A program made the position numbers and the translations under genes. 64,000 nt of DNA from Schizochytrium sp. TIO01. Its lineage: Eukaryota > Sar > Bigyra > Thraustochytrida > Thraustochytriidae. This document shows, piece by piece, positions 7,801 through 63,534 of the stretch. The notes beneath the pieces were generated by a model, which saw only the letters and a program-made list of their open reading frames with translations, was not told the origin of the DNA and made no database searches. Location of the stretch: NCBI GenBank assembly GCA_004764695.1, contig SMSO01000032.1, positions 766,501 to 830,500 on the forward strand. The letters are read 5' to 3'. How positions within the stretch are numbered: position 1 is the first letter of the stretch; every line of letters starts with the position of its first letter.

Positions 7801-8467
7801 AAAACAAAGGAAAAGCGGCGAAGAAAAGAAGAACAGAGAGCAATAATAATGAGCCCTCTATCTTCAAGTTCATGGCCATCATCATTCCATCACGAATGAA
7901 TGATACAACCACTCTTCGCCTGAGCAAACGAATAGCACAGGTTGACGCCGCGGCTTTCTTCCAAGCCAAGCCAACTAGCTACGTCTCTCTATCACAGTCA
8001 CTCGCTCGCTCACTCGCTACCTCGCTAACCCGTGAAGTTGCCGCCGGCACGGTTCCGATCAGATCCTTCACAGCGACAATGAGGCCTTTCGAGGAATCCA
8101 TCCAGCAACAGCTCTTTCTGCGATTCACTGCGTGATACAAGTCCAAGCACACGCCTCTCCCGGAACGCGACGGCAAGGGAGACGAGAAAAGAAAAGTGAT
8201 TGCACCAAATACCTCCAAGCTAGCGCCGCCATTAGCGGAATCGCTAAGCCCTCTCCCTCCCTCTCTCTGTCCCACTGTAGCTAGTTCTAGAGGTGCCTAG
8301 CTGAATGCCTAGAGACTAACTACTACCACAGCCATAAATAGCGATGCCGCTAACTAACTAGAGATGTGACGACTACACGTCAAAGGCAAGAACGATAGAT
8401 TTCGTAGGATCGTTTATCCTTCAACGGGGCGCGACTTCATGACTACGGATTGGAAAGTTAATGAATA

Positions 8468-9824: not shown

Positions 9825-11222
9825 GCATAGCAGTACTTTTCTTTTTCTTTTTTTACTTTCATTTATATGTACTTCTACTTTTTCTGTTTTTCCCTTTCTT
9901 TTTCTGTTTTTGAAAAGTTGATTTTTTCTAGTTAGCCACCACAGCGAAGGAGAAAACAAGAGGTGCAAAGAAAAGGTCCTTTGTCCTTTTGTTGCAAACA
10001 TTCGCAGCTTACCCCATCGTTTTAAAGGTACGCGTGCGTCTCGCATGCTTTGTGAAAAGAACCTTGTTATTACCGTGGTTTTAGAGTTTCAAGAGTAGCT
10101 AGTACGGTAGCAAAGACTTGGGAACGCGATTTCTTACTATTTGTTTCCCATCCTCTGCTCCTGCTACCACATACTTCCAGGGTTTCTTTAGTTATTCATT
10201 TTGCTTATTTCCTCGTGGTAATTTGCAATGTATTATTGTTGGTTCAAAGGCATCTCCACTAAGTCTGCGATTATCAAGTTCATACAGGTTGGATAAAGCT
10301 TTGTTTGGGTCCGCTCCGCACAGGCTCACTGAGGCGCAAACAAAGAAGGAGCTCCTCAATCCTTTGTGCCAGACAACTCGTTGCTTTGCGAGTGCCAAAG
10401 AGCATCGGAATACTCACTCAGCCCGTGGCCAGGCAATTAGAGTGACCCTCATCATTGAGCGATACACCTCACTTGCGACTGCCACCCATGTGGAGCGAGG
10501 CCTAATTGGACGATTCAGTTGACTGTGAAGATGAAAGGTTGAGAGTTCAAAGGGTATAGAAAAGAAATGCTCGAGAGTGAGTCTTTCTTTCATTTTATTT
10601 CTCCCTAGAAATAATGTTTAGAATAATGCTTTAAATAATTTTTAGAATTGAACTGAGTGAATGAATGAATGAAGGAGAGAGAGAGATTTATTTTCCATCT
10701 GAGCGAACTGACTGAAAAGACTTCGAGGTCTTGGGCGCATTGAAAAAGAGGTTGCCGGCTTCTAATCATTTGGTGTTGATGGTATCTGCGGGTCAGTGTG
10801 ATCGCTTCACTGATTGAAAGAGGGTTTGACAGCAAGGTTCAAGAAACAAAGAAAAGAAAAGAGGCAAATAGTATACATGCTTATGTATTTATATTATTTA
10901 TATGTATTATATATTTCTTTTATTGAGAAGAGAAACTTGAAAGAAAGCGATTTTTAGCTTTCAAAGAAAAGAGAATAAGAACCCCTCACTTTGAAGAGAA
11001 GAAGGAAGTGCAAAGTCTAAGAAACTTATGAAAAGGAAAGAAGAGAGAACACCAGAACAAGACCTACCAGCAAACTTCACCCAGAACTGCAAAAGACCCG
11101 AGGAGCCTTCAAAGCAAAACCTCAACTCGAGCTCCCAAAGCTTCAGCAAGGCTTGCAAAGCTTTCCTCACCAGCTCTTTGACAAACTAATAAACAAACAA
11201 ACAGACTCCTCAGTCTAGCAAA

Positions 11223-12281
11223 ATGCGCGCTGCTCTTGCTCTCTCCCGTGGCCGCCATGCCCTCGCCACCTCTGCCTTGACCCGTCCTCTCCGCTCCCAC
11301 TGCGCTGGCATTGCCACCGTCATCGACGGCAAGGCTGTTGCCAGCGAGGTTCTTGCTGACGTCAAGAAGGATGTCGATGCACTCCGCGCCAGCCACGGCG
11401 AGGAGGCCACCCCCGGACTCGCCGTCGTTCTCGTCGGTGACCGCCCCGACTCCGCCAAGTATGTCCAGATGAAGAAAAAGGCTGCTGCCGAGGTTGGAAT
11501 CCGCTCCATCGAGACTCTTCTCCCCAGCACTTGCACTCACGAGGAGGTGCTCGAAGTCGTGCGTGACCTCAATGCCCGCAAGGATGTAGATGGTATTTTG
11601 GTTCAGCTTCCTCTGCCCACTCAGTGCGACCAGACCTCCATTCTTGAGGCCATCGATGTGGAGAAGGACGTTGACGGCTTCCACCCGTTCAACATGGGCC
11701 GCTTGGCTCGTAGTGGTGAGGACCTTCGCCAGCAGCGCCGCGAGTTCTTGCCCCTTGAGAGCCGTAACGCCTCCTGCACCCCGCTTGGATCCATCGTGCT
11801 CCTCGAGAAGTCCGGCTGTGAGATTGCCGGCAAGAAGGCTGTTGTTCTTGGACGCAGCAACATTGTTGGCCTCCCGGCAGCACTCATGCTCCTCCACAGA
11901 CATGCCACTGTAAGCATTTGCCACTCCCGCACTCCGGATCTCAAGGAGATGTGCCGTGAGGCTGATATCCTCATTGCTGCCATTGGCAAGCCCGAGTTCG
12001 TCAAGGGTGACTGGATCAAGCCTGGTGCCACCGTCATCGACGTTGGTATTAACTTTAAGGAGGACCCCACCCGCAAGAGCGGTATGCGCATGTGCGGTGA
12101 TGTTGACTACGAGGCTGCTCGCCAGGTCGCTGGCGCCATCACACCCGTCCCCGGTGGTGTTGGCCCCATGACCGTTGCTATGCTCATGGTCAACACCGTC
12201 AACAACGCCAAGATCCGCCTTGAGCGTACCATCGCTGAGGAGTCCCAGTACCCTGAGAAGGAGGCTGTCAGCGCCCAGTAA
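11223..12281 (+). CDS. folD: Mitochondrial methylenetetrahydrofolate dehydrogenase/cyclohydrolase (FolD/MTHFD2 type)
   Basis: This 352-residue protein interconverts 5,10-methylene-, 5,10-methenyl- and 10-formyl-tetrahydrofolate, the one-carbon supply for purines and formyl-Met-tRNA. The start is the first in-frame ATG, in a good AAA-ATG context. Residues 1 to about 30 are rich in Arg, Ala and Ser with almost no acid, like a mitochondrial presequence. The catalytic pair Tyr80/Lys84 lies in YVQMKKK. VQLPLP (127-132) and the folate-site Asp151 in KDVDGFHPFNMG follow. The Rossmann part has GRSNIVGLP (210-218), and PVPGGVGPMT (308-317) closes the fold. Residues about 165-185 hold a Gln/Arg-rich insertion, in a loop that is shorter in the homologues I know. 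No formyl-THF synthetase domain follows, so this is the short two-activity form. NAD versus NADP preference cannot be read. Codons favour G or C at the third position, which suggests strong expression. Confidence 0.96.
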   Translation: MRAALALSRGRHALATSALTRPLRSHCAGIATVIDGKAVASEVLADVKKDVDALRASHGEEATPGLAVVLVGDRPDSAKYVQMKKKAAAEVGIRSIETLLPSTCTHEEVLEVVRDLNARKDVDGILVQLPLPTQCDQTSILEAIDVEKDVDGFHPFNMGRLARSGEDLRQQRREFLPLESRNASCTPLGSIVLLEKSGCEIAGKKAVVLGRSNIVGLPAALMLLHRHATVSICHSRTPDLKEMCREADILIAAIGKPEFVKGDWIKPGATVIDVGINFKEDPTRKSGMRMCGDVDYEAARQVAGAITPVPGGVGPMTVAMLMVNTVNNAKIRLERTIAEESQYPEKEAVSAQ

Positions 12282-12343
12282 GCTACTCTTCCTCGCTCCA
12301 CATACACACACGCTTGTTTGCCTTTAGAAGATTGTAAGTTGGG

Positions 12344-29568: not shown

Positions 29569-30413
29569 TTAACGCTTCTTCATGAGGTAGACTGCTTCGC
29601 TGGTCTCAGGCATCGGGGCCTCATGCCTCTCGAGGAGCTCAACCGTGAAATGCGGATCGAAAAGTTCCCGCACGATATCCTCGGTCACACTATGAGGAGG
29701 GCCAGGGCGTACACCTTCAGGGTACTCAAAGGTGCAAAGAAGGACAGTAGCGTCTGGGGTGGTCTGCTGAACCATAGTCTCCACATACTGCTTGCGCATA
29801 TCCGGATCAATAGCTACGAGAGAGGCGCGATCCCAGATATGAGTGAATTTGTTGTGGCCAGACTCACCAAGATCGCTCCATCCATGGGGAAGATTAAAGA
29901 GATCCATTTTGCCAATTGCAACATGGTTCTCAGAGCCTGGCGCAGGGGCTCGGTACAGCTTCTTATCACTCTTTTCTAGAGCCTCGCCATCCCACTCGAG
30001 TTTGTGCTCTTCAGCAAATTGGTCAATCGCCTCCTGAGCAATTTCAACACCAGCAACGAAGCCAAACTGAGCAAGCCATACCAAGTCAACAGTCTTACCA
30101 CACAAAGGCACAAAGAAGTTGCATTCCCCATCTTCAGACATCATATGCTCCTTGTATTTGACAAGGTTGGGGTTCACATCCTGGACATGCCAACCAGGGT
30201 TGGTGTTTGCGTCGACAGCTGAGGTCCATCGCTTGTGCCATGCCTCAAGGTGATCTAGTTTAGATTCTAAAGCCTCCTTGACCCTCAGCTTTGGTCGCAC
30301 TTTGGTCTTCTTCTCCCTGGCACATTGCCACGCCGCCAAAGATGCTTGCAGCCACGCTGAGACGAGCCGCTTGGCGCATGGAGTTCATAGCTACTCGGTT
30401 CATCGTTTTCTCT
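29569..30413 (-). CDS. TPMT: TPMT-family methyltransferase, copy 1, frame break after the presequence
   Basis: This is a SAM-dependent methyltransferase of the thiopurine S-methyltransferase family, which also includes plant halide/thiol methyltransferases. The body has FVPLCGK, GVEIAQEAIDQF (SAM site), IWDRASLVAI and PGPPHSV, all family hallmarks, and ends at KKR like copy 3. The body frame runs from about 30300 to 29569 and has no ATG before the conserved part; a TGA lies upstream in that frame near 30398. A mitochondrial-type leader (MNSMRQAARLSVAASIFGG) instead lies in another frame from ATG 30413 and stops near 30262. Joining the two needs a +1 shift or a very short intron between about 30340 and 30265. 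This may be a sequencing error, an unrecognised intron or a fresh mutation. The methyl acceptor is unknown. Confidence 0.8.
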
Positions 30414-32688: not shown

Positions 32689-33501
32689 TTAGCGTTTCTT
32701 CATGCAAAAGACGAGCTCTTCAGTGTGCGGCATAGGGATGGGTCGCTTCATCAATAATTCGACAGTAAAATAATCCTCATACAACTCACGAACTATGCTC
32801 TCTGGCACACAGTACGGAGGCCCGGGGTGAGCCCCTTCAGGATACTCAAATGTGCTAAGAAGGACGATGGCATTTGGAGAGGTTTGTTCGCGTATGACTT
32901 CGACATACTGTTCTCGTAGAGGAGCCTCAATAGCAACGAGCGATGCTCGATCCCAAACACGATCAAACTTATGTTTCTTCGACGCCCCAAGGTCACTCCA
33001 ACCATCAGGAAGGTTAAAAAAATCCATCTTTCCTATCACAATGTCATTGCTTGTGGCAGCACTATGCGCGCTGTAAAGCTTCTCGTCGCTTTTTTGCAAA
33101 GTATCTTTGTCCCAAGTAAGCTTGTTCTCAGCGGCAAACTGATCAATTGCGTCTTGAGAGATTTCAACTCCAGCAACAAAACCATACTGGGAAAGCCAAG
33201 TTAGGTCAAGCGATTTACCACAGAGTGGAACAAAGAAGTTATGTTTTTCACCTTTTGCGATAAATCTGTCCTCAAACTGGAGTAGTCTTTTGTTTACAGC
33301 ATCGATATGCCAGAAGGGTTGCTTTGTCTGAAATTGCTCAGTCCACATATTCACCCACGACTCCGTCTGCTTTGGCTTTTGTTGTTCCTGCATCAGAGCG
33401 GTGCTGGCATGCAAACTCCGCGTTGAGACAGGATGTTGTGAAGCCTCTTGCAGGAAACTAGTGAGGCGCCGCATCGCCTTTTCGCTCGACCTTATCATCA
33501 T
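32689..33501 (-). CDS. TPMT: TPMT-family methyltransferase, copy 3 (intact)
   Basis: This 270-residue SAM-dependent methyltransferase is the intact member of the array. The frame extends about 74 codons upstream without an ATG, so the start is the ATG pair at 33501/33498. Residues 1 to about 35 (MMIRSSEKAMRRLTSFLQ...) are basic with Ser/Arg/Ala, suggesting import into mitochondria. WVNMW near residue 50 begins the fold; VPLCGKS (91-97) and GVEIS (111-115) form the SAM site. WDRASL (183-188) and PGPPY (226-230) are family signatures. TPMT-family enzymes methylate thiols, halides or chalcogen oxyanions depending on the member; the acceptor here cannot be read. It is as close to copies 1 and 2 as they are to each other, so local duplication is the likely origin. 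Confidence 0.92.
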   Translation of the reverse strand: MMIRSSEKAMRRLTSFLQEASQHPVSTRSLHASTALMQEQQKPKQTESWVNMWTEQFQTKQPFWHIDAVNKRLLQFEDRFIAKGEKHNFFVPLCGKSLDLTWLSQYGFVAGVEISQDAIDQFAAENKLTWDKDTLQKSDEKLYSAHSAATSNDIVIGKMDFFNLPDGWSDLGASKKHKFDRVWDRASLVAIEAPLREQYVEVIREQTSPNAIVLLSTFEYPEGAHPGPPYCVPESIVRELYEDYFTVELLMKRPIPMPHTEELVFCMKKR

Positions 33502-34184
33502 CTTCCCTCGCTTGAACTTTATTTTAAGATAGCTCGGTTTCGACCTTCTTGCGATACAATGAAGGCTACATAAACTACGCGGGCCAAGGAAGCAGCTCTG
33601 GCCACACCCGACAAACGCGAGTGGATTCTCGCAACTTCGATACGGGTTTGAAGAGCACAAATCCGCACCAGGAAGAAACCCAATCCTACTAACACTAGTG
33701 CTAACTATTAAGTCATTTAGCAAAGATGTGTATTTCCGATCGTTGCAGGTTCGTTTATTGGGAGGGCAGAGAGATCCAACCTGCTACAATTGAAGGTGCT
33801 TTGGTTCGTTGATCAAAGACGAACGGGAGGTTTGCGCATTCCTGAGAAAATGATAGACTTGAATCTTAGGCATATAAAAATTGGATTCTTTAAAATTCCA
33901 GGATCAATATGTTGAGAAGGAATACTTATAGAGATTCTTGTTGATATATTTACTTTAACGATCACCAGGCGGGGGGGGATTCTTTTCTCACCTCAAAATC
34001 AATGGAGAACTTTTAAGTAGAATAGTGCAGGATAATGAGAGAGACCATAGAAAGAAGACGAAATGGAGATAAAAGAGCAAACGAGGTGAATTGAAACTTG
34101 AAAACGTGGCACTGGCAAGACTTTTATGTAGACTTACAACTCGTCAAAGATTCCTTTGAAGGATCACTCATTTGAGATGCCACT
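33502..34184. other. Upstream region of TPMT copy 3
   Basis: 683 bases. The first part is an open frame continuous with copy 3 but without an ATG, taken as leader. A G-run occurs near 33971. Nothing else is recognised. Confidence 0.4.
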
Positions 34185-36190: not shown

Positions 36191-36892
36191 AGTCCCACTT
36201 ATCACTTTTGAACTATTGTTAACACAAAAAAATAAATATATATATAGATCTTGTTTCAAGATATTGTCCCCAATGTTTCATGGAGTTATTAACTAAAGTA
36301 AAGAGAATATAATATGCCCAGCCCACGTGTTGATTGATTCTCTCAAAATATGTAGACGAATTCGCCCAGGGATGAATTCAGGGTGTAGTATAGAAGATAA
36401 GTTCTATCAAATACACAATAATGTGTTTCGAATACATGACCTAGTGGCTTGCCGCGCTCCATTGCCGTTCTTAGAACGTTCTCTTAAATCGACATAAAAT
36501 ATTTCATACTTTGGGGGATAGAAGACCTAGAGGACACAAATGTATATGATTGAGCTCACCAATGACTGTGTTGGACTCCGATCTTAATATATGGGAAAGC
36601 AAATATGACTACGACGAGGAAGAAGAAAAAGCATTGTATGCAATAACTTACTAAACCTAGCTAGTGGGTTTCATTATTTTTAATTTTCAGCATTAAAACT
36701 TTTCATTTAAAAAAAATAATATTTAAAGGGTCTAATTTAGTTCCGTTACGTATCGATAGTCCATTTATTCTTCGACATGAACAATTGGGTCTCGCTTCAA
36801 CAACCGAACCTCCAGACTGATAATTTCACGTAGTGGTTGCTGAGCAGCTCGATCAAACATCCTCAACAACGCAACGCAACGCCGCAAAGGAA
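36191..36892. other. Shared upstream region of CFAP300 and the Fic remnant
   Basis: About 700 bases, very AT-rich, including an ATAT tract near 36238-36246. It is probably the promoter region for two divergent genes. No motif is recognised. Confidence 0.4.
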
Positions 36893-37822
36893 ATGGAGAT
36901 TGTAGCTGAGAGCAAGAACCTCAGCGGTCCTGCAACAGGTGTACCGGGAAAAGGAAAGCCGCTCATCAGTGAAGTGCCCGGCGAGCGTCATCAATGGACC
37001 TTTGAGCCTCTACGAAAAAACGAGGAAGGTCTCCTTGGAGATCGCGAAAACCAGGAGACATTGCTTCGATGGGGCCTTGATCAAACTCTTATTCTCGAAA
37101 AATTTAGGGTAACTTCTGGCGGAAAGGATCTTGAGGGAAATCCAGAAGCTGTTCTGCTTGACTTCTTTAACAGTTCACAGGTACAAGCCCACCTTCAACA
37201 AGTGTGCTCAACACCAGAGCGATCAGCCTTAAAATACCCGCATGGAGTGTACCATAAGGTCGGGAACAAAGCTCTACGTACTTCCCAGACAGACCTTTCT
37301 CTTTTCCATCGTTTGAAGAGTTCAGAGCATCGGCTTGCAACAGAGCAGGGCTACCTTCGCAAGTGCATGGACGAGATTTATGATGGAGCTACAAGCACGA
37401 CTCTTGTGGGGGATATGCTTTTGAATGAAGAATCAGAGCACTACGATACCTATTCGGAAGAAGAAAAGGAGGAGCTGTTATTTTGTCTATTCCGTTGGCT
37501 CATGGTCGGGGGTACCCTCAACCAGGCCGATGAGAATCTGCAACCATATATGAATATGCTAAAACGTCTTTATAAGGAGCTTGTTTGCGTCGTGAAGGAC
37601 CTCGACACTCAACAGATCCGTGTGACCTCTCGGCCATTTTTGGTTTCATCTTTAGATCAAAGCGCAAGTGACCTATTCACGGTACCAGAAAACTCTCACA
37701 ACGTTTGCATAGTGGTTTTCCATCCTCAGCAATACACTGTGACATACCTTTTGCTCTTCATTCATCCCTTACCTTTAAAATTTCCGTCTTTAACTGAAAA
37801 TGTAATTTTCAAGGTTCATTGA
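36893..37822 (+). CDS. CFAP300: Cilia- and flagella-associated protein 300 (CFAP300) homologue
   Basis: 309 residues from the first ATG (MEIVAESKN); the frame is open 20 codons further up but without an ATG. CFAP300 (C11orf70) is a cytoplasmic factor needed to assemble outer and inner dynein arms of motile cilia. The likeness, judged from memory of the family, covers most of the chain. It includes WTFEPL, LLRWGLDQ with a following F near the start, and the SLFHRL block in the middle. Strongest is the C-terminal half, with LLNEESEHYDTYSEEEKEEL, LFRLF-like FCLFRWLMVGG, YKELV and VTSRPF. The last 30 residues are hydrophobic and unlike the animal protein, so a short 3' exon or frame change near 37740 is possible. 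The gene converges on the RNPS1-like gene with only 149 bases between. It implies the organism makes motile flagellated cells. Confidence 0.8.
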   Translation: MEIVAESKNLSGPATGVPGKGKPLISEVPGERHQWTFEPLRKNEEGLLGDRENQETLLRWGLDQTLILEKFRVTSGGKDLEGNPEAVLLDFFNSSQVQAHLQQVCSTPERSALKYPHGVYHKVGNKALRTSQTDLSLFHRLKSSEHRLATEQGYLRKCMDEIYDGATSTTLVGDMLLNEESEHYDTYSEEEKEELLFCLFRWLMVGGTLNQADENLQPYMNMLKRLYKELVCVVKDLDTQQIRVTSRPFLVSSLDQSASDLFTVPENSHNVCIVVFHPQQYTVTYLLLFIHPLPLKFPSLTENVIFKVH

Positions 37823-37971: not shown

Positions 37972-39528
37972 TCATGCTTCTGCTTCTTTTCCTTCTTTTC
38001 CTTCTTTCCTTCTTTCTTTCTTGCCTTTCTTCTTTTTTTGCTTTTTACTATCTTTTTTGTGCTTTTTGCTGCTCTTTGTCTTTTTCTCTTTCTTATGCTT
38101 CTTACCCTTTTTGGATTTTTTATCCTTCTTGTGCTTTTTCTTTTTATTCTTTTTATCCTCCTCGTCATTGTCCTCACGATCGAGTTTTCTCTTGGTGCTC
38201 GTGCTAGATTGACTTCTGGAAGATCTACTTGAACCTGAAGATGAATGTGATGAGTAGGAGGATCTGCTTGAGACAGAGCTGTAACTCCTGCTAGATCCTG
38301 AGCTAGAATCAGAATCTGAACGGCGACGGCGGCGACGTGGACTATCTAAGTTGCTATAATGACGACGACGGTAGGCTTCCACATCAATAGACATACTTCG
38401 ACCACGGCTAGCCTCGTGGCAAAGAGAAGATTGCCCAAGAGGTTGAGGCGCTTGAGAGCTCTGTGATACCTCACTTCTAGCTCTGCGAGGATCAGAATCT
38501 TGGCGTTCTTGGATAGAACCTTTGTTGTGTTGATCTCGCTCTAGTGAGTGACGATCATCCTCGTGATGACGAGAACTATAGGTTTCACGCTTTACACGAG
38601 GTGGACTTCTGCTACGGTAGCGTTGTGGGGGCGGACTACGGCTGTAGCGACGCCTGGGGCTGTATCCACGTCGGTCCAGACTTGGGTATCTTCTACGATC
38701 AGGACTAGGGCTTCGATAACGTTCATAATCCCGAGAGCTGCGATAGTCCCGATGGTCACGATGATCCCGATGGTCGCGATGATCCCGATGGTCGCGATGA
38801 TCCCGATGGTCGCGATGATCCCGATGGTCGCGATGGCCATGATGGTCACGATGGTCGCGATGATCGCGATGGTCGCGATGGTCGCGATGGTCGCGATGGT
38901 CGCGATGGTCGCGATGGTCGCGATGGTCGCGATGCTCACGGTGATCACGTCTGGAATGACTATGTTCGCGCTCATGGGTTACATTTTCTATGAGACTTCG
39001 TGGATTCCCCTTTTCTGTTTGCTCTTGAATATGCGTTTTGGTAATTGCTGTTTGTGAATGAGATTTCACGCCTTTCGGGGCTCCCGGCAAGGTTACCTGC
39101 GAAAGCTTACCAGGGACCAATATCGCGCGAAGTGGCATTCCTTCTAGCTCTGCTCCAGCTTCCCAGCATTCCAGAGCCTTTTGAGCTGCATCAATGTTCT
39201 CGAATTGGATGTAAACCCAGTGGCGCTTGAAGGAGATGTCCTCAATCTTTCCATAAGCACCAAAGATCTCCTTAACATGGTCTCGACTTAATTTGTTCAC
39301 TCCTTGTGGAGGTTCCTGAGCTCGACGGCGTTTGCCTCCTTTCTGCGGTTGATTCTGGACAGGATTTTCGGTCAGTGAATTAGGATTAAACGTCGGGCCC
39401 GATGGTTGAGGCCATGAGGTTTCGGGCTTGTTATCCGCTGGAGTATGAGTCACACAAAGCACTGCGGCCTCTGAAGCCGTAGATAAACCTTGTTCAGGCA
39501 CCGTTGCAGTACCCTTGTCGCCATCCAT
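37972..39528 (-). CDS. RNPS1-like RRM protein with long Arg-Asp-His repeat and RS tail
   Basis: 518 residues from the first ATG (MDGDKGT); a GTG 15 codons upstream is not preferred. One RRM lies at about 76-140. LSRDHVKEIFGAYGKIEDI resembles RNPS1, the splicing activator of the exon junction complex, and HWVYIQFEN is the RNP1 strand. The loop before RNP1 is shorter than in animal RNPS1. Residues about 195-260 are some 20 tandem Arg-Asp-His triplets, broken once by HHGH. After that come Arg/Ser/Pro blocks (RYRSPSPDRR, SPRRRYSRSPPP), a Ser-rich segment, and a Lys-rich end. Arg/Asp and Arg/Ser dipeptides mark nuclear-speckle splicing proteins, normally controlled by SR kinases. A role in pre-mRNA splicing or mRNA quality control is likely; identity as the true RNPS1 orthologue is less sure, since other SR proteins share the layout. 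Confidence 0.8.
   Translation of the reverse strand: MDGDKGTATVPEQGLSTASEAAVLCVTHTPADNKPETSWPQPSGPTFNPNSLTENPVQNQPQKGGKRRRAQEPPQGVNKLSRDHVKEIFGAYGKIEDISFKRHWVYIQFENIDAAQKALECWEAGAELEGMPLRAILVPGKLSQVTLPGAPKGVKSHSQTAITKTHIQEQTEKGNPRSLIENVTHEREHSHSRRDHREHRDHRDHRDHRDHRDHRDHRDHRDHRDHRDHHGHRDHRDHRDHRDHRDHRDHRDHRDHRDHRDYRSSRDYERYRSPSPDRRRYPSLDRRGYSPRRRYSRSPPPQRYRSRSPPRVKRETYSSRHHEDDRHSLERDQHNKGSIQERQDSDPRRARSEVSQSSQAPQPLGQSSLCHEASRGRSMSIDVEAYRRRHYSNLDSPRRRRRRSDSDSSSGSSRSYSSVSSRSSYSSHSSSGSSRSSRSQSSTSTKRKLDREDNDEEDKKNKKKKHKKDKKSKKGKKHKKEKKTKSSKKHKKDSKKQKKKKGKKERRKEGKEGKEAEA
38745..38945. repeat. 9-bp coding minisatellite (Arg-Asp-His) inside the RNPS1-like gene
   Basis: Tandem units reading GATGGTCGC on the plus strand. 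The 38750-38830 part shows a higher-order 18-bp unit alternating GATGGTCGC and GATGATCCC; the later part is more uniform. The unit length is a multiple of three, so copy number can change without breaking the frame. Confidence 0.9.
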
Positions 39529-41824
39529 GGTGCCTCGAAAGCGCTCTGTCGCTAAGGCAGTCCCGAAAGACACTACTCTTGTATCTATCTATCTACTCTC
39601 CATCCAGACTCTTGTGGGCTTCTTGCAAGTGAATTATAAGGTTTTTAATAGTAATGTTTTCTGAGTAGTTAATGTGAAATATAGAATAGGACATATAAGC
39701 CAACTTTGGTAAAGTTCACTTTGTCTGTTCCGGTTCAGAGAAGAAGGGATAAAAGTAGTTTATCTAAACTACTAGACAGGTGGTACCTACTACCATAGGT
39801 CAGAATTTAGTAAAGACAATACCTAACATAAAAACTTTAGATCGGATTCCACATTGAGTACACAATGAGCTCAATCGTGCTTGACCGAGATTTGGTTGTA
39901 CTTTAAAGAAATAAATTGGTCCTTGAAAAAGAATGTGGATAGTATCTCTAGGGCTTGAAACGGACATGTATAAGAAGAATATGGAGGACGCTACATTATT
40001 GCCAACACTCTTAAGACGCCCAGATTACCAGCACAGCGGACACGTGCATGATGAGTTGATCAGTTATTCTTACTGCTCCTGATCGTGTGTCTATGAACCC
40101 TGAACAACGCAAGTGCGGAATTACCTAAACTTTAAAGGAGGGTTAATTTTTATTAAGTAGACAAGGTTTAATATTTAGGTAAAGGTGCAACGATGTGAAC
40201 AAATATTATACAGCACAGCAATCAGCATAATTACATTGCTTGTCCCTTCTATCTCTGGGTGGCAGTTTCCAAAAGTGGAGGTTATTTTAAGCTATTTTAA
40301 ATGGATATGAGGAATTTGCCGCGACATAATGATTTACCAAAACGAGGGCAGTCATATCAACGGTGTAGGACTACAAGAGACTTTTCTCCAGATTTTTATT
40401 ATTATCCTGAGAGAATGGACGGGGGTGAGTTTTGGTAAGTTATAATCTAATAAGCGACGTTGACGAAATGGTTACGTGGCACCTGGTCAACGCATGCCAC
40501 AAGACCTTCTCTTGGATTGATATATAGCGTAGCGATGAGCACCCCCCCCCCCAAAAAAATAAAAGAAACACACATAAAAAAAATACTTATAACAATGATT
40601 CATTCATTTGCCAATTTGTATTCACAGCCTATTCAGAATATACGCCGTGCAAGCACCAGACAGCAGCTGTCCACCGTGGTTCCACATCGTAGAAAGGTGG
40701 ATATTTTAGTATTATTCGACGAGATGCGCTAACGATTTATCGGCAACTACCCCCCGGCAATGACAGCGACCATGATGCTCCTCCAACTAACAAGGCATTG
40801 TTCGCAAACTATAAGGAATAGATTACTCAAGGCTGCTTGAAAGAGTTTTGGTAATGCTATTGAAATTCAAACTAGATTCATTTGTCCTGCAGAACTGTGA
40901 TTTTCGAATACTTGTTTAATTTTCATATACACACGACCGAAACCATAGTTCCACGAAGCCTAAATTCACCCAAAAAGTGATATTGGCTCGTTTTACTTTA
41001 TTTTCAAGACAGTAAAAACGCAGGGTAAAAACTCGAAAATCAAATAGAATACAATCAGAAAGCAAGCGAACTCAAATCTTAAACAATATGTTGTTTTGTT
41101 GTAACTTGACCAGGTCTTTGTTCACGACCAAGCTCTTTCATTTGTTTATTTAGTTTGTCATTATTTCAAGTCAATTCCTTCCTCATTTGGTACATAGGGT
41201 TGATGCCTTAGCAATTTTTTTTCCTTACGTTGTGAGGAATTATAAAACCTTCATTTGGGAAGTACCTGGTAGGTGGGGTGTTTTATCTCAGAATAGCATT
41301 CATTTAGGCCTTTGGTGAAAAATAGAGGTTAGATATGAGTATAGCAAGGTCGAGTATTTATTGCAAGTTTGTTAATCTCGAAAGAAAGGATGAAGTAGAA
41401 ACAGTGAACATGTTGATTATTTGGGTAGTGTACTGAAACGGTTACATGGGTTAACTAGCTTGTTCAGTTTGGAACAGAAATCGTCTTTTAGTAGGACGAG
41501 ACGAATACTCTACAGATACGTGGTGTGTGTGTAAACTTCAGATCAAATGTATCCGCGGTTTTCTCATTTCAACTTGATAGAAATTTGAAAGACCACTTTT
41601 TGCTAATACTCCCTAGAATAATTGTTTCTAAGGAGATATTCTTTTATTACGTGTTTGCGTGCTTTCCAAGATATTGCCAGTAGGATAAGCATTGACAATA
41701 CCTCTTTCTTCTACTATTATTAAGTTGAGGTGAGACGAGGATGGAATATGTGCATGAATGTGCATGATATGTGTGAATGGTTGGCTCCCTGATGCTAATA
41801 AGAGGCAATCGTTTCGATTGATTC
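39529..41824. other. Spacer between the kinase and RNPS1-like genes
   Basis: About 2.3 kb, AT-rich. A C9-A7 stretch lies near 40542-40558. No gene, RNA or mobile element is recognised. Confidence 0.45.
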
Positions 41825-55250: not shown

Positions 55251-58200
55251 TTACGAAATAGACCTCGAGATATCATATTCGGCATCTCGGTGGCCATTCC
55301 GCTGGCGTAATCGCTGCATGGAGTGAACTCTGAGTTCAGCACGAACTGTGTCATATCTATTGGCAAGCTCCTCTCGTCCGTAAAAATCAGGTGTTCTTAC
55401 ATTTTGGGCTGGCCAACCAGCGATACTCTCGTCTACCCGTAAATCTGGCATTTCAAACATGTCTCTTAGCTTTTCAACATCTTCATGAGGTAACAAATGC
55501 ACAGTCTGGCCATCTTGTCCCAAAGGCAGAAGGAGATCCTGGATAGGTACACCCTCGATGTCAGCTTCTTCAGCTTCCTGGTGCTCATGTGTATAGGCCT
55601 CTATTGAATACAGGCATCGAGAATACTTAAATCGATTATCGGTATTCACGCGTTGTGCGACCATAGCCAGTTCTTTGAGATCATTCCCATATACAATATC
55701 TGCAAGAGGTTCGTGATCTAGGAAAGACTCTTCAGGATTTTGAGGCCACCACTGTTTAGCATACCCTTCACTAGAGCCAACAGCGCCGTGGTCACAGAGT
55801 CCGCTATCGCTTTCTCCCCATGCACGATAACCAATTGGAGGCGCAAACGCTTTGTGCAGATTCAGCTTTTCACCAATGACATTTTCGGAAGGATAGTAGA
55901 ACTCCTGGTCAACATCACTACGACTGACCCATGGAAACCATTTTTCGTGGGACCTGCTGCCTGCTTCTTCCTCGATTATACGAGTTACAATCACACCGTC
56001 CCCAGTTGAAACTACTTTGCAGCCTCCATCCGCAATAAAATGTATAGCTGCTTTCAAAGCACATAAGCTCCGACGCTCGCGACCGCTAAGCCTTCTAACA
56101 CTTCCCCCCCTTTGACCTGTAAAAAAATTTCGATGCCAGCCCCCTGATTCAAATGATGTCACTTGGTCCCAAATCTCTCTCCAATGCAACCTGTGCTCCG
56201 GTTTCCACTCTGTATGGTTTATAGCCATGCTTGTTCCTGGAAGTCCAAAGGTTTCCATCTCCTCAAGCTTTGAAGGCACAGACCCAGACACCTTATTAAA
56301 ATGGTTTTTTTCCCCTAAACAGTTATGCAGCTTTGCTGCGAATTTGCATAAACGGGTTCGTGTTAATGGAACTGGAATGAAGTTGCAGCATGTGCACAGC
56401 CTGATAAGCAATCTATTCCTATTTGACGTCGGGGTAAACGTTTGGACAAGAGGAAGTTTAATTGAGCCTGGATGCTGAATGCATGTACATTCACCACACT
56501 GATCTGTAAGCCACCTGCCGTGCTCGCAATGCGAGCAATCAAAACAAGGCCAGTAGTCACCATTCTCGTCAAGATTGTTTTCAGTGGCCTCCTGCGTCGC
56601 TTGTCTTCTCTTGCCATGAAGCTTGCACCAACAGTACTCACAACCCTCAAGGGGTATGTCGTGTCGACACCAGTTTTGACAGAGACTGCAACGATCGTTC
56701 TCGGTTGGGCCTTCGCCAGTATTGAACGCATGACCACAATGTGGACACTTACAATAACGGCAATGTTCTGTTCGAAGCATGTCGTGCTGGCAATAGAGAC
56801 AACTGTGGCAAGGCCATAGTGTGCCATTGTCGTCAAAATCTAAATCATCGCTCCCGGTTGCAGGAATGCGTTTTTCGTCATGATCCCAACACCAACAGAT
56901 GTCACATTCCTGAGGGTCTCTATCATGACGGCACCAGCCTTTACAAATACTGCAACGATCACTCTCAGTTGGACCCTCGTCTTCATGAAACTCATAATCA
57001 CAATGAGGACATTTGCAATAGCGGCAAGGTTCAGAACGAGGCGTGTCATGTATACAGTATTTACAATCGTGACAAGGCCATGGTGTCCCATCGTAATTGA
57101 ATTCTTCATCCTCGTGACCAGTATCTGGCACACGTATCAAGTTATGTAGTGAACACCAGCAGATTTCGCAGGAAGTACGCTCCATTCGGTGCTGACACCA
57201 ATTGGCACAAAACCTGCATCGCCCACGGGAATCTGCTGTTTCGCCCTCAAGAAAACTATGTCCACAGTATGCACATGCGCAAAGAGAGCAAAACCCCCCA
57301 GCACAAGATGGCCTCAACTCGCACAGCCGCATCTCATGTTTTATGCAATAGCAATCTTCGCAATCAAAGATTACTCGGTTTTCATGTCCGGGGCACAAAC
57401 ATGCATCTGTGCAGAGAAGGCATTTCCCATCATTTCTTTTGAGATTTCCAACCCTGCCAAGGTTCACGGCGCGGCTGTGTAGCGAGCAAAAGTGTTGGTG
57501 ACACTTTATACGTTGTGGAACTTTGTTGACAGCGTCAACTTCAGCGTTTGTATCCTGCTCAACAAGTTGAATACAATCAGGACACGGGTCTTCGCAAGCT
57601 GAGCATTTGCCACTCAACTTATATTCATTGTGGAAAAGACATTTGTGCTTGAACGAACATGTCATGCTATTTTGTTTCTTTCCAAATGGACACATTTCAC
57701 AAGGGTCGGCACAGACTGGGCAAGACAACGAATCTTGTGTAAGGTCTATGCCGCCATCCTGGTAGATGCTCATGTCCGTCTTCGTACTCCTATGTTGAGA
57801 ATCATAGCACCAGTGAATACCTAGCTCAAAGCATTCAAATCTAGTGGGGTATCTTTGCAGGGCATCTACTTGATGATATGGACAACCCCCACCTTCACAA
57901 ACCTCACACTGCCCTTGACAAGCCTCTAATTTCTCGCGCTGGTGTTCTATGCACCAATGCTTCCTACACATTGTACGCGGCAAGAGAAGGATGGGATCTT
58001 CTCCTTCTCTCTGACACTCTCTGCAAGGATCTCTGCACACAATACATTTCGAGTCCTCTTCTTTGTCTCTTCCGCCTAAGTCGCTACGTCGATGCGTTTT
58101 ACACCAATGTTGTTGACATTCTTCCTCCCAGCGTGTTTGACTTGCATTTTCAGCTTTACAGGATGCACACCCATGTTGGCAATGAATGCACTGCTTGCCA

Positions 58201-61200
58201 TAGTGAATACTACCAGTCTCTAGATAATCTGAGCATGTTTCACATGGATCGTGCGACTTAGGGTAATCGTGTTCGTTACACCAGCACAACATGCAATTTC
58301 GCTTCTTCGACTGATGCTCGCAACAACACATTGGGCAATGTCCTTCCTCATCTAGCCTTATCTGAGATCCGTGGTTCACATCGCAGTAGCATTTGCGACA
58401 TCCACGCAGAGTTTTCCCATCTTCTTCTACACCTTCTTGACGTTGCTGCATATGCACGGAACACCAACACTCGGTGCATTCAACCTTGGCTTTTTGCATA
58501 TGCTTTGGACATGGAGATGTGCAAACTAGACATGTTTTGGTTCCCCCGATCCAATGTTGGCATCCAATTTGACAAATACCTCCACAATTCAATGGATTTC
58601 GTACGTTATTATCAGCTTCTGACATATCCTCAACGTCTTCAAACCCATCTATATTTTTACTTTTTGATTGGTTGATTGAATACAAACATATCATGCAACA
58701 AGGCTTCGCATCTGGGTCATAGTCTTTCTCTCGATTGTGAGCTTCACAATAGCAACGCGAACAGTTCTTTAGCACCCAGCCACAGTCACACAGTGTACCA
58801 GGCTCGCCCTCACAACCTGGACATATCAGCTCGTAGGGGGGAACAATATCAGCATGAAATCTATGCTTCCTGCAGTAGTGTTGTAAGCACCATTTCCAAA
58901 ATCGATAGCGATGCAACCTAGCACATTGATCACAATGGCCAGGCAAATAGAACAGAAGATTCTTCCAAGTACTCCAACACACCCTCACGAGTGACAACTT
59001 TAACAGATATAACAGCAGAAGAAACCCTATAATAACTAACTCTACACCAATGATGACGAAACCTGTCAATCCAACAATGCTATAAAGTGCAGTGGCAACA
59101 AATAAACCACTAATCCCTCCGAGACATGAGATAGAAACTTCAATCAGAACACTCAACACGAACGTGCTTAAATCAAGTGCTATAATGACAAACTTCTCAA
59201 TAAACCTCATTCCCTTGTATGCTATCATTCTCAGCCGAAAGCAAGCTTCAGTTGAATCACTTCTTTGTAAAGTAGAAACTGAACTTTCGGAAGCAAAAGA
59301 GGCAGCGCTCTGACGCTCTGACTGCATGTCTTTCTTCTGGCGCTTGCATCGTAAAACACGATCTAGACAAGTTAGTTCACCAGTAGATGAATTCGTCAAC
59401 ATATCTGATTCCAAAGTATCAATAGCCATTACTGTTTGATGTTGTGTACTTCTAGCTGAGGACAGTCTGGCACAACTGCCCTTCCAAGTGCTCCGCCTAG
59501 AACTGCCAGTCTTCATGCTTCGACTTGAAGATGCAGTATCTCCTCCCTTTAGATCATTCCACCAGAGAATATTCCATAGGCCATACAAGGGTGCCTTGGA
59601 GTCGCATCTGCTGCCTCTGCTTCGACAAGTCACACTCAGATTCTCACGATCTGCTTGGGTTCTGGACTTTCCCTCCGTGCCACCTCGCAATAATTCTCGC
59701 AACACCTGAAATAGAAAAACGCTCCGACTGAATAAAGACTTTGTTAGAATCAAGAGATTGTCAAAGAGCTGTGTGTACCAAAATATCAGGTTCTTTCGGG
59801 CATTCTTCAATCCGTACTTGATAAATTCTGGTGTAAACTTCCATCGAATCGAAGACCTTGAGTAACAATAGAATAGAAACCAGGCTATCATTCCAAAAAG
59901 GAAGACAACAGGGCTCCAAAGCACCATGAAGACATATTTTGGTAACGTTGTTTTTGCTTCGCATAGCTGCATCTGCGCTGCCATGCGGCCCCACTGAGTA
60001 GTGTAGGTGTTGTTGAAGACATCATCTAGTACAGATAAAATATATGCAGGCCCCCCGTGCGCTTCATTTGATTCTTCGATGGCTCTGAGGATACTACTCA
60101 TATTTTCCCATGAAACACAAGTCCCCGCTAAAGACGCGCTACTATAACCAGTAGAACTTGAGAGACGATCGCACGCGTTTTCGATATTCTCTGGGGGATT
60201 CGAGTCCCGTTTTAACTGTATAAGAAGTACTACACCCATAGCCAAACTGTATAATACGACTACAAAAGCAAATATGGACAGACAATATGCTCGACATTCG
60301 TTTTTAATAAGCGTCCCGGCAAAGATTTTGGTTAAGCATTCTTTTTCTTCATTAGACAGCATCGGGAATTCTTCATCGTTTTCAGATTTCTCTGGAGATG
60401 GGGAATTCCGGAAGAAACCCCGCATTTGATTAAAACTCCGATAACCTTGTTTTTTCACCCTTTGTATCAAAAAAACCGTGTCGCTGCTTTCCATACTCCG
60501 CACGTGCTCCATCACAGCTAGACTTCGCTTGATAGGGATATCGTTCTTGTTATTTTTCTCCTGCTCCAGGCGTGCACTTCTTGATATCAAGCTTGAACGT
60601 GCAGAGACACTCTCTCGAAATTCCAGTTTCACCGAGTGGGAACTATCTTGCTCCACACTGTTGCGTCTGTTCTTTTCATCAGCATGTTCTAACGACTCTA
60701 GAATTCTTTTCTCCACCTCTGCCTTGAGTTTTTTTATTTTGGCTTCATTTCTGCGAAAGTGACGTTCTATCTGAGCTCTATCTTGATAAACCTGCTCTCG
60801 GTTATTTTTCACTTGGGAACAATGATTGGGTATTTCATTTTCACTGAAGATAGTTTTTTCAATGATGGCTTTAACCTTGTTCAAGTCGGATTTAGGGTCC
60901 TTTTCAGATATCCCCGCCTGTGAGTTTTTGCGGATGTAGTCCTGCAGTTTTGGATATTTTGAGCTGGAATTTACTTTGAACTCTAACAGTACACTAAATG
61001 TAGCATTGTAGACCAATTTCATATAGCGTTGGAATTGAAACTCATGGTACTTTTCGCCGAGTAGACCTAGACAGCGCAGTACTAGAAAGAAGAGAAGTAC
61101 AAAAAAAAACATAATGGTTTGAGTCTCACGATCAAAACAACCGAATCTCTGGTCAAATGCGGTCTGAAACGGTGGAAGGTTATTTCCGGTGGTATTGATG

Positions 61201-61895
61201 CCTCTAAAAACGTATGTTGCAAAGTCATGAGGTTGCAAAACTGGACTTAGCTCAAGAACCTCGTTTAACGCTGTTAATTCCCTGCATTGCTGAAGCCAGA
61301 GAAACTTGGTGCCAGAGGCCAATGCGATTGCTCCAAGAGAGGGACATGTGGTATTCTCGACTACCTGACCACTGCAGGTGCTAGAGCTCCTCATTTTTGA
61401 CCATGCCCAGCAGCAAAATCCGAAATACAGTGAGCATAAACTGATGGAGAAAATAATCGATATCTTCTGTCGGGGCTTCTCAAATTCCCAATTCCCCATA
61501 TTCAAATATTTAATACTTTGCGCAGAATAAGTTGTAACATTCCAATCTCGAGAGCCATTGTCATATGTAGATACATCTCCAAGATGGTTTGACATTTCAT
61601 TTTCAGAGTGGCAATTTAAGAATCGTGGCTGCTGCGAGTCGCCGATGAAGTTAGACCATGAAGGGCGCCTACTTGTATAGCGGTTGGGCATACATGTATT
61701 CTCATTATTGGTCTGCGAGTCTTCTTCATCCATTTCGTATGGATATTGAGAATGGACGAAAGTTGAAACTTCTACAGTACTATGGGTGATGGGTGGTTCA
61801 TCATCAGCGCTATCGAATGTCTCCATCTGGTTGCTTGAATGAAACCCAACCTGATCATACCTGGGTGCAGCGCTCCCTTTGCTCTTTCGCCTCAT
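55251..61895 (-). CDS. Giant multipass membrane protein with repeated Cys/His-rich modules, unknown family
   Basis: 2,214 residues from the first ATG (MRRKSKGS); the frame extends upstream from a GTG. An N-terminal tail of about 140 residues precedes a first helix (about 143-165). Then come a Cys-containing loop with NTT and NTTG glycosylation-type sites, a helix (261-277), and a long charged, partly coiled stretch. Next are a helix (536-560), a second Cys loop, a helix (655-678), a Ser/Arg-rich segment, and a hydrophobic cluster (about 900-965) long enough for two or three helices. Residues about 985-1810 hold about 115 cysteines in repeated C-x2-[C/H]-[W/Y/F]-C-x2-H motifs (for example CTECWCSVH, CQQHWCKTH, CEYCWCKLH) alternating with C-x2-C pairs such as CIVCRDPCREC, and end in tandem 88-residue units. 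The spacing suggests zinc binding. About 400 residues without such repeats follow. RING-like ligase or metal sensing are possibilities, but neither is shown. Confidence 0.9.
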   Translation of the reverse strand: MRRKSKGSAAPRYDQVGFHSSNQMETFDSADDEPPITHSTVEVSTFVHSQYPYEMDEEDSQTNNENTCMPNRYTSRRPSWSNFIGDSQQPRFLNCHSENEMSNHLGDVSTYDNGSRDWNVTTYSAQSIKYLNMGNWEFEKPRQKISIIFSISLCSLYFGFCCWAWSKMRSSSTCSGQVVENTTCPSLGAIALASGTKFLWLQQCRELTALNEVLELSPVLQPHDFATYVFRGINTTGNNLPPFQTAFDQRFGCFDRETQTIMFFFVLLFFLVLRCLGLLGEKYHEFQFQRYMKLVYNATFSVLLEFKVNSSSKYPKLQDYIRKNSQAGISEKDPKSDLNKVKAIIEKTIFSENEIPNHCSQVKNNREQVYQDRAQIERHFRRNEAKIKKLKAEVEKRILESLEHADEKNRRNSVEQDSSHSVKLEFRESVSARSSLISRSARLEQEKNNKNDIPIKRSLAVMEHVRSMESSDTVFLIQRVKKQGYRSFNQMRGFFRNSPSPEKSENDEEFPMLSNEEKECLTKIFAGTLIKNECRAYCLSIFAFVVVLYSLAMGVVLLIQLKRDSNPPENIENACDRLSSSTGYSSASLAGTCVSWENMSSILRAIEESNEAHGGPAYILSVLDDVFNNTYTTQWGRMAAQMQLCEAKTTLPKYVFMVLWSPVVFLFGMIAWFLFYCYSRSSIRWKFTPEFIKYGLKNARKNLIFWYTQLFDNLLILTKSLFSRSVFLFQVLRELLRGGTEGKSRTQADRENLSVTCRSRGSRCDSKAPLYGLWNILWWNDLKGGDTASSSRSMKTGSSRRSTWKGSCARLSSARSTQHQTVMAIDTLESDMLTNSSTGELTCLDRVLRCKRQKKDMQSERQSAASFASESSVSTLQRSDSTEACFRLRMIAYKGMRFIEKFVIIALDLSTFVLSVLIEVSISCLGGISGLFVATALYSIVGLTGFVIIGVELVIIGFLLLLYLLKLSLVRVCWSTWKNLLFYLPGHCDQCARLHRYRFWKWCLQHYCRKHRFHADIVPPYELICPGCEGEPGTLCDCGWVLKNCSRCYCEAHNREKDYDPDAKPCCMICLYSINQSKSKNIDGFEDVEDMSEADNNVRNPLNCGGICQIGCQHWIGGTKTCLVCTSPCPKHMQKAKVECTECWCSVHMQQRQEGVEEDGKTLRGCRKCYCDVNHGSQIRLDEEGHCPMCCCEHQSKKRNCMLCWCNEHDYPKSHDPCETCSDYLETGSIHYGKQCIHCQHGCASCKAENASQTRWEEECQQHWCKTHRRSDLGGRDKEEDSKCIVCRDPCRECQREGEDPILLLPRTMCRKHWCIEHQREKLEACQGQCEVCEGGGCPYHQVDALQRYPTRFECFELGIHWCYDSQHRSTKTDMSIYQDGGIDLTQDSLSCPVCADPCEMCPFGKKQNSMTCSFKHKCLFHNEYKLSGKCSACEDPCPDCIQLVEQDTNAEVDAVNKVPQRIKCHQHFCSLHSRAVNLGRVGNLKRNDGKCLLCTDACLCPGHENRVIFDCEDCYCIKHEMRLCELRPSCAGGFCSLCACAYCGHSFLEGETADSRGRCRFCANWCQHRMERTSCEICWCSLHNLIRVPDTGHEDEEFNYDGTPWPCHDCKYCIHDTPRSEPCRYCKCPHCDYEFHEDEGPTESDRCSICKGWCRHDRDPQECDICWCWDHDEKRIPATGSDDLDFDDNGTLWPCHSCLYCQHDMLRTEHCRYCKCPHCGHAFNTGEGPTENDRCSLCQNWCRHDIPLEGCEYCWCKLHGKRRQATQEATENNLDENGDYWPCFDCSHCEHGRWLTDQCGECTCIQHPGSIKLPLVQTFTPTSNRNRLLIRLCTCCNFIPVPLTRTRLCKFAAKLHNCLGEKNHFNKVSGSVPSKLEEMETFGLPGTSMAINHTEWKPEHRLHWREIWDQVTSFESGGWHRNFFTGQRGGSVRRLSGRERRSLCALKAAIHFIADGGCKVVSTGDGVIVTRIIEEEAGSRSHEKWFPWVSRSDVDQEFYYPSENVIGEKLNLHKAFAPPIGYRAWGESDSGLCDHGAVGSSEGYAKQWWPQNPEESFLDHEPLADIVYGNDLKELAMVAQRVNTDNRFKYSRCLYSIEAYTHEHQEAEEADIEGVPIQDLLLPLGQDGQTVHLLPHEDVEKLRDMFEMPDLRVDESIAGWPAQNVRTPDFYGREELANRYDTVRAELRVHSMQRLRQRNGHRDAEYDISRSIS
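56466..57345 (-). repeat. Tandem 264-bp coding repeats (88-residue Cys/His units)
   Basis: Within the giant ORF, the boundary WPC(H/F)-x-C recurs at about 57078, 56814 and 56550, exactly 264 bases apart. Two full units of 88 residues share YCKCPHC, GPTE(S/N)DRCS(I/L)C and a C-x2-C-W-C-x2-H motif. A similar but less regular unit precedes them (about 57345-57080), and a partial unit ends near 56466. Confidence 0.85.
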
Positions 61896-63534
61896 TTTTA
61901 TACTGTTTAAAGCACAGGAACAAGAGTTGAAGGTGCTTGGTAGACCAAGAAGAAAATATCTTTCCACACGATACACAACAGGTAGACCAGCAGCCTTGAC
62001 ACTGCACTGCTAGTGAAGAGTTTTGTTGATCTATATTGTGTGAATATCAGATATACACAAGCTCGCAAGGCTCACCCACGCAATCTGTGTTAATATTTGT
62101 CTCTGGATCGTATCGGCACTAGACTGACTCAGTTATAATGAAAACGTATTTCTCTCAAAACGAGTTTGAACGTTTGCTTTTGCATTCAGTCGCTTCTTGA
62201 CAAAACTAGTACCTAATTCCTTTTAATACGCCTTTGCTATGTTGTGCCGTGTCAGTCTTGTTGGTGTTCTACTCACATAACTGGCATGGCTTCAATGTAT
62301 ATACAAGTTACCTCTAAAATCATGTTTTCTAGTAGTATAATTTCAAAGCCATTCTGGTAGCCCCCGTGCACTTGCTACTTCGCCCATAATGTAATATGGC
62401 CTTCCCACTTCCCTTCGCAAATGCAATGCAAATTTTGTATACTGAAGTAGATCGCACAGCGGTGCCGTGGTGTCATGATACATAGTATCGAACCAGCTAA
62501 CCCGTTGAATCTGAATAGTTTCCAAACTGTTCCTCTGGTTCTCCGTCTAGAGCTCAACCTCGAGTCGCCTTCGTGCTACTTGGCGGACGGCTCAGCCTGT
62601 CGGTATTCCACTCACACACTTCATCCGGGATACCCATCACCAATGTCACGGTGCAGTAAGATTTACCATTCATCATTTGTAGAAGTTACCTACCTACCTA
62701 CTACTTACTTACTTACTTACTTACTTACTTTCTCCCAAATGTATAGAACTCATACTATGCTTTACAATGAACATGCTGGAGTCTCGCGGTGCATAAAGCT
62801 TTCAATCAGCGGTGACCAAAGTATTTGCTCCTCACAGCTGTGCATAAGATCTTTTTGTAACTTGGAAGTAGGTATGTAGTACCCACTACCAAAAATAAAG
62901 TCCATTCAAGTAAATTGTCAAAGCAGTTTTAGAGCTGAGCACCTCGTGCGGCAATAGCGAGTCTCCCCAGCTCCTTACCAAGTTCAGAAAATTTCAAGTT
63001 CTAAACTTTTTTTATCAAATTTGTTCGCTTTGCGGAGCGGAAGGCGTCACATACTCAGAGTAGGCTGGGAAACAAAATAAAAGCAGACGTGGGGCCACCT
63101 TTGATAGAACTGGGGCCTGGAGGAGATGTCATTCCCATATTGAGTCTGAGTTTCTTCTTAGTGGGTATCAGATGGCCACGCAAAAGGCCGAGGGAAGATC
63201 CGTCATTTTGAAAGTTCTCTAGACCATTTACATCTTGAGTACCCACTAACCTACTCACCTATTCTACTTTTAACAAAGGGCACCAGAAGCTTCATTTGCA
63301 GCCTTAGCTATGTTTCGGCTGCAGGATTCGAGGTACGTAAACATCTGTTTAAAAGAAAAAGAATTTAGATGCTGCACGCGCTGATTTTGGCTCACAAAAA
63401 GTACTAGTACGCAGAGATATTGCATGATTGGTAGGGGGGGGGGGGTTATCTTTTTATTTGGGTGAACGCTGAAGTCAAAGCCAAAGTATCAAGGAGCTCG
63501 ACCGGTCTTCACCATAGAGTGAGTTTGAAGGCAC
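61896..63534. other. Upstream region of the giant membrane protein gene
   Basis: About 1.6 kb without a recognised gene. It includes an (ACTT)n tract near 62703-62730 and a G13 run near 63436-63448. Confidence 0.45.

Follow-up and report, generated by a model that had tools for sequence, protein, structure and literature searches.

A predicted multipass membrane protein of Schizochytrium carries a long array of Cys/His knuckles that may form a zinc-stabilised rod

On the minus strand of a 64,000-nucleotide stretch of the Schizochytrium sp. TIO01 genome (hereafter the window), one open reading frame encodes a long block in which short Cys/His motifs recur, and the question is which fold and which function such an array could have. 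A sequence-only reading had proposed an undescribed module, C-x2-[C/H]-[W/Y/F]-C-x2-H, present at least eleven times in this frame. In translation, the block (56466-58945) has 827 residues, of which 116 are Cys, 51 are His and 21 are Trp, which is close to the earlier estimate of about 115 Cys in about 830 residues; the Cys content of the array is 14%, with many CXXC pairs. We found exactly 11 exact matches to the motif, and all five examples quoted earlier are among them. When the block's own residues were shuffled 5000 times, the motif appeared 0.015 times on average and never more than twice. For the intervening pairs, which had been described as often reading C-x2-C-x-[D/S]-P-C-x2-C, the form C-x2-C-x-D-P-C-x2-C was found three times exactly, with further close variants elsewhere. 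On the plus strand, CQSCWCSTH at window position 62250 was considered as a further motif carrier and judged to be a chance match; it sits in a 47-aa frame.

The array is one part of a much larger protein. The minus-strand frame of this gene (gene A) extends over 55251-61976 and encodes 2241 aa. Its likely start codon is the ATG at residue 28 of this frame, because a paralogue, gene B, opens with MRR at the equivalent position. From this ATG, gene A spans 55251..61895 as an open frame without an intron and encodes a predicted multipass membrane protein of 2214 aa. The region that follows the array up to the C-terminus (55254..56456, minus strand) contains CKFAAKLxNCLG and KWFPW, both kept in B, and no known domain was found in it in Pfam, NCBIfam or the PDB sequences.

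Paralogue B is a diverged gene located head-to-head with A, just beyond the edge of the window; about 2.75 kb separate the presumed ATGs of the two genes, which lie at C31:828395 and C31:831145. The two proteins can be aligned from end to end with 30% identity, have the membrane segment and loop features, the array and the C-terminal part in common, and B has 11 C-x2-[CH]-[WYF]-C-x2-H motifs of its own. Judged from this alignment, A and B are a real gene family. Within the array, Cys is identical at 81 of the 85 aligned places, followed by His (63%), Trp (54%) and the other residues (31%). This is the pattern expected for metal ligands and linker aromatics. Gene B spans two overlapping frames (positions 1646-2797 and 2730-7994 of the local extract), a split that a small intron, a frameshift or an error in the sequence may explain. 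The region of the split (extract 2666-2797, at about 832.2 kb of C31) lies near an A9 run. Between A and B, a run of TACT/TACC tetranucleotide repeats is located at window positions 62690-62735.

We searched the genome (64 Mb, 37 contigs) with protein A and with the array of B, and they matched each other alone. Among the matches listed for genome-wide motif patterns, for the second of which the first 20 places were examined, those of A and B alone fell in long frames rich in Cys; the other matches listed lie in short or low-complexity frames and were rejected as carriers. A and B thus appear to be the only credible carriers of the array in this genome. No relative was found in viral contigs, phage records or bacterial and archaeal genome contigs.

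Parsing of the array (56472..58934, minus strand) gave 59 C-x2-[CH] knuckles in A, arranged in about 17 units, and 46 knuckles in B; besides the unit table, the shuffles and the conservation described above bear on this parse. The nine-residue motif does not stand as a module in itself, since it comprises knuckles 3 and 4 (K3 and K4) of a larger unit with four knuckles. In the full unit, C-x2-C-x3-C-x1-2-[CH]-x6-23-C-x2-[CH]-aromatic-C-x2-H, K1 and K2 are separated by three residues and correspond to the C-x-D-P-C pairs, a loop of 6-23 residues leads to K3, and one aromatic residue joins K3 to K4. Another 8-25 residues then precede the next K1. The regular count of knuckles is broken at residues 1093-1141, 1245-1248 and 1552-1571. 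In addition, one unit (CRKCYCDVNH, residues 1193-1202) lacks K1 and K2. The final part of the array (56463..57227, minus strand) consists of three 88-aa repeats, each aligned as two compact units. Between these repeats synonymous change is saturated or nearly so, and dN/dS is about 0.13-0.38 where it could be computed.

The units fall into two types. In the first, K2 ends in Cys and K3 in His and the loop between them is longer, and in the second K2 ends in His, K3 ends in Cys and the loop is 6-8 residues. Of the 13 units of A, 12 had exactly one His across K2 and K3, as had 20 of the 22 units of A and B together, after exclusion of two ambiguous units; His in both knuckles was seen in one unit only, which is common to A and B. 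In permutation tests, this compensation gave p = 0.0002 for A and B, 0.007 for A and 0.04 once the 88-aa repeats of A had been collapsed, values that are optimistic because the units are related by duplication and hence not independent. The simplest reading of this covariation is that K2 and K3 would share one metal.

Based on these data, we propose that short C-x2-[CH] knuckles follow one another through the array as one continuous chain, in which each knuckle would pair with a neighbour over a loop of 6-25 residues, K2 with K3 and K4 with the next K1, to form consecutive putative zinc sites with one His (C3H). Successive sites would abut via the single aromatic between K3 and K4 or via the x-D-P type spacer between K1 and K2, joined as are the two fingers of a LIM domain and prolonged to some 20-30 sites. 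We infer zinc as the metal, sequential pairing, a cytosolic location and a scaffold role, and we see about even chances that the protein passes the membrane several times and that its C-terminal half forms a cytosolic rod stabilised by zinc, most likely as an interaction scaffold. The knuckles of the unit that lacks K1 and K2 would stay pairable in such a sequential chain.

An alternative is that the array consists of tandem RING-like, cross-braced fingers, in which K2, K3, K4 and the following K1 provide eight ligands, either as a membrane ubiquitin ligase or as a degenerate RING array. In favour of this reading, the step from the first Cys of the motif to the Cys after the aromatic has the length of the RING core C-x-H-x-[FW]-C-x2-C, pairs such as CPVCADP and CIVCRDP resemble the C7-x2-C8 endings of RINGs, and very weak profile matches to the RINGs of TRIM30 (E 2.7) and Arkadia (E 9.1) were obtained. 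Given the equal length of the core, the earlier statement that the spacings are other than those of RINGs is only narrowly true; the second ligand, the His of the RING core, is placed one residue later in the array, which also has an extra pair of knuckles between fingers. However, strict RING spacing (C3HC4 or C3H2C3) gave no match in either array. With E values up to 10 allowed, the RING model (PF00097) matched the genome in 82 places, of which about 69 exceeded the cut-off and none lay in A or B. Moreover, cross-brace pairing would yield a mixture of C4, C3H and C2H2 sites with one His in 20 of 44 sites of A and B, whereas sequential pairing gives 40 of 44, nearly all. One-His sites from neighbouring pairs speak for a sequential chain like that of LIM domains rather than for a RING-like cross-brace. 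There are also just one to three residues between knuckles where such units succeed each other. Taken together, we consider RING-like fingers unlikely, and the ubiquitin-ligase work that had been suggested for the array found no positive support, as the RING model misses the array and the ligand covariation disfavours a cross-brace.

Is the chain then a LIM array? Sequential zinc topology is standard for LIM domains and cross-bracing for RINGs, and both are well known (PMC7614390). LIM domains (PF00412) and the array have in common C-x2-[CH] pairs that bind, or in the array are proposed to bind, at consecutive sites, a C3H first site and a very short, often aromatic linker that joins two sites. 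However, a LIM domain (C-x2-C-x16-23-H-x2-C-x2-C-x2-C-x16-21-C-x2-[CHD]) has two sites, with spacers between domains, whereas the array is an unbroken chain with linkers that alternate between one and 2-4 residues and loops of 6-25. Under the same E limit of 10, the LIM model matched the genome in 17 places; at least 12 of these exceeded the cut-off, and none lay in A or B. Strict LIM spacing gave no match in A or B, and a relaxed pattern (linker 1-4, loops 11-25) gave 19 and 23 matches, respectively. LIM membership is thus not indicated, and a chain that would work like a prolonged LIM-type chain is the best-supported idea. For the spacing between K1 and K2 there is a precedent in Rds3/PHF5A, where the knuckles of a tight C-x2-C-x3-C-x2-C (Cys 23, 26, 30 and 33) belong to different zinc sites (PMC7614390). 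Rds3/PHF5A is a single small knotted domain, unlike the membrane-bound repeat described here, and has no sequence match to it.

Further searches agree with the earlier claim of an undescribed module. The whole protein and its parts gave no significant match in Pfam, NCBIfam or the PDB sequences, and no account of this protein was found in the literature. The best profile match among the PDB sequences, to an actin-binding LIM protein (E 0.19), was not significant and was judged to be chance, as was a match to UPF0547 (E 0.0098 over 10 residues). That the array is an extreme relative of the treble-clef finger, as had been suggested, is therefore possible yet unproven. None of the LIM, B-box, RING, VSP and DC-STAMP models, which were all run genome-wide, matched A or B, nor was B-box spacing found in them. 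The B-box model gave equal-scoring matches in 1176-aa frames (for example at C5:1192650, C24:5429166, C24:5508316 and C31:7185721), probably a repeated mobile element. Two AlphaFold2 runs on alignments of the internal repeats gave pLDDT values of 48 and 59, so that the fold and the pairing of zinc sites cannot be read from these models, and a Foldseek search with the pLDDT 59 model, a low-confidence query, returned no useful match. Measured against the domain libraries, the structures solved so far and the literature searched, the array seems new, and orthologues may exist as hypothetical proteins in other protists. Tentatively, and with a probability clearly short of even, the array may represent a zinc-fold family not described before: a membrane-tethered rod without breaks, in which every knuckle would pair with its neighbour and some 20-30 zinc ions would come one after another with none of the ordinary linkers between domains.

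In A, hydropathy predicts TM1 (61398..61466), TM2 (61047..61127, also indicated by the alignment with B), TM3 (60207..60299) and TM4 (59853..59942), followed directly before the array by an 80-residue hydrophobic stretch (58965..59204), all on the minus strand. The membrane part hence adjoins the array, in line with the earlier suggestion that it may work at a membrane. The same order of four TMs and a hydrophobic stretch of 70-80 residues was found in B, where TM4 is weak and two extra TMs surround a loop of 58% Ser/Thr/Pro. The TM1-TM2 loop of A contains Cys and two sequons, with C-x-L...FLWL..C conserved in B, and the TM3-TM4 loop is acidic and also contains two sequons. These two loops carry sequons and have low K/R contents (8% and 5% in A, 5% and 3% in B), and the remaining loops reach up to 20%. 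Basic residues flank both sides of the final hydrophobic stretch in A and B, and over the first 40 residues past it the net charge amounts to +17 to +20 per 100 residues. The charges follow a positive-inside pattern: because the start of the array is so strongly basic in both proteins, we consider the array likely to be cytosolic.

The final hydrophobic stretch could cross the membrane two or three times or fold as a hairpin, and three crossings would place the array outside. This would suit a disulfide-rich extracellular or luminal coat domain, comparable to the CXXC-rich variant-specific surface proteins (VSPs) of Giardia, which are described with CXXC and zinc-finger motifs and, as extracellular proteins, have a single C-terminal TM and a CRGKA tail (PMC6115752). 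The high Cys content with abundant CXXC pairs and the membrane anchoring are indeed alike. Against a coat domain, which we regard as improbable, stand the basic start of the array, the low density of sequons (0.3-0.5 per 100 residues in the array versus 1.3-2.4 in the likely outside loops), the conservation of His at ligand-like places, the presence of only two genes instead of a large variable family, and the VSP profile (PF03302), which matches neither A nor B. A and B also differ from VSPs in that their multipass part comes ahead of the array.

DC-STAMP-like proteins (PF07782) are multipass proteins with Cys-bearing outside loops and a Cys-rich cytosolic part at the C-terminus. The predicted anatomy of A and B resembles this, and the DC-STAMP-like profile left both unmatched.

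In the cytosolic rod that we prefer, the variable loops would provide the surfaces for binding, which makes a membrane-anchored protein-interaction scaffold the most likely role. By analogy to LIM proteins, this is most simply how a membrane-anchored chain of zinc sites could act; no enzyme domain was found in A in Pfam and NCBIfam. Alternatively, the density of ligands could itself be the function, in a metal buffer, metal sensor or redox sensor at the membrane. Going by the number of knuckles, A could probably hold about 30 metal ions and B about 23, and compact units of 25 residues with eight ligands would fit such a role. However, the sites look individually fixed, with conserved aromatic linkers and ligand types and with long loops, which sets them apart from the Cys clusters of metallothioneins, and no transporter or enzyme domain was found in Pfam or NCBIfam. 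We therefore give a sensor or buffer little probability.

Should the proposed zinc binding hold true, sequential zinc fingers would be seen to form one long continuous rod, not separate domains, and an undescribed membrane scaffold would be added to a protist group that is used in biotechnology. A and B provide two naturally diverged sequences for testing the pairing rule on fragments. Even if the function is ordinary, the array marks a clear gap in the domain libraries.

The genes of the window are largely intronless. In its genome setting a multi-part PUFA synthase was found over the family cut-off, and the cilia protein CFAP300 is encoded at 36833-37822; these traits are in keeping with a thraustochytrid (Labyrinthulomycetes). 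On the minus strand, 29569-30339 and 32689-33723 hold a neighbouring pair of thiopurine-methyltransferase-like genes (PF05724, E 2e-40 and 5e-38), the second of which has an N-terminal extension. The minus-strand gene at 37972-39573 encodes an RRM protein that has a lysine-rich tail and a long tract of RDH/HRD repeats. A 400-aa antisense frame (11109-12311, minus strand) wholly covers a methylenetetrahydrofolate dehydrogenase-like gene (11223-12281, plus strand) and is probably a by-product of codon bias.
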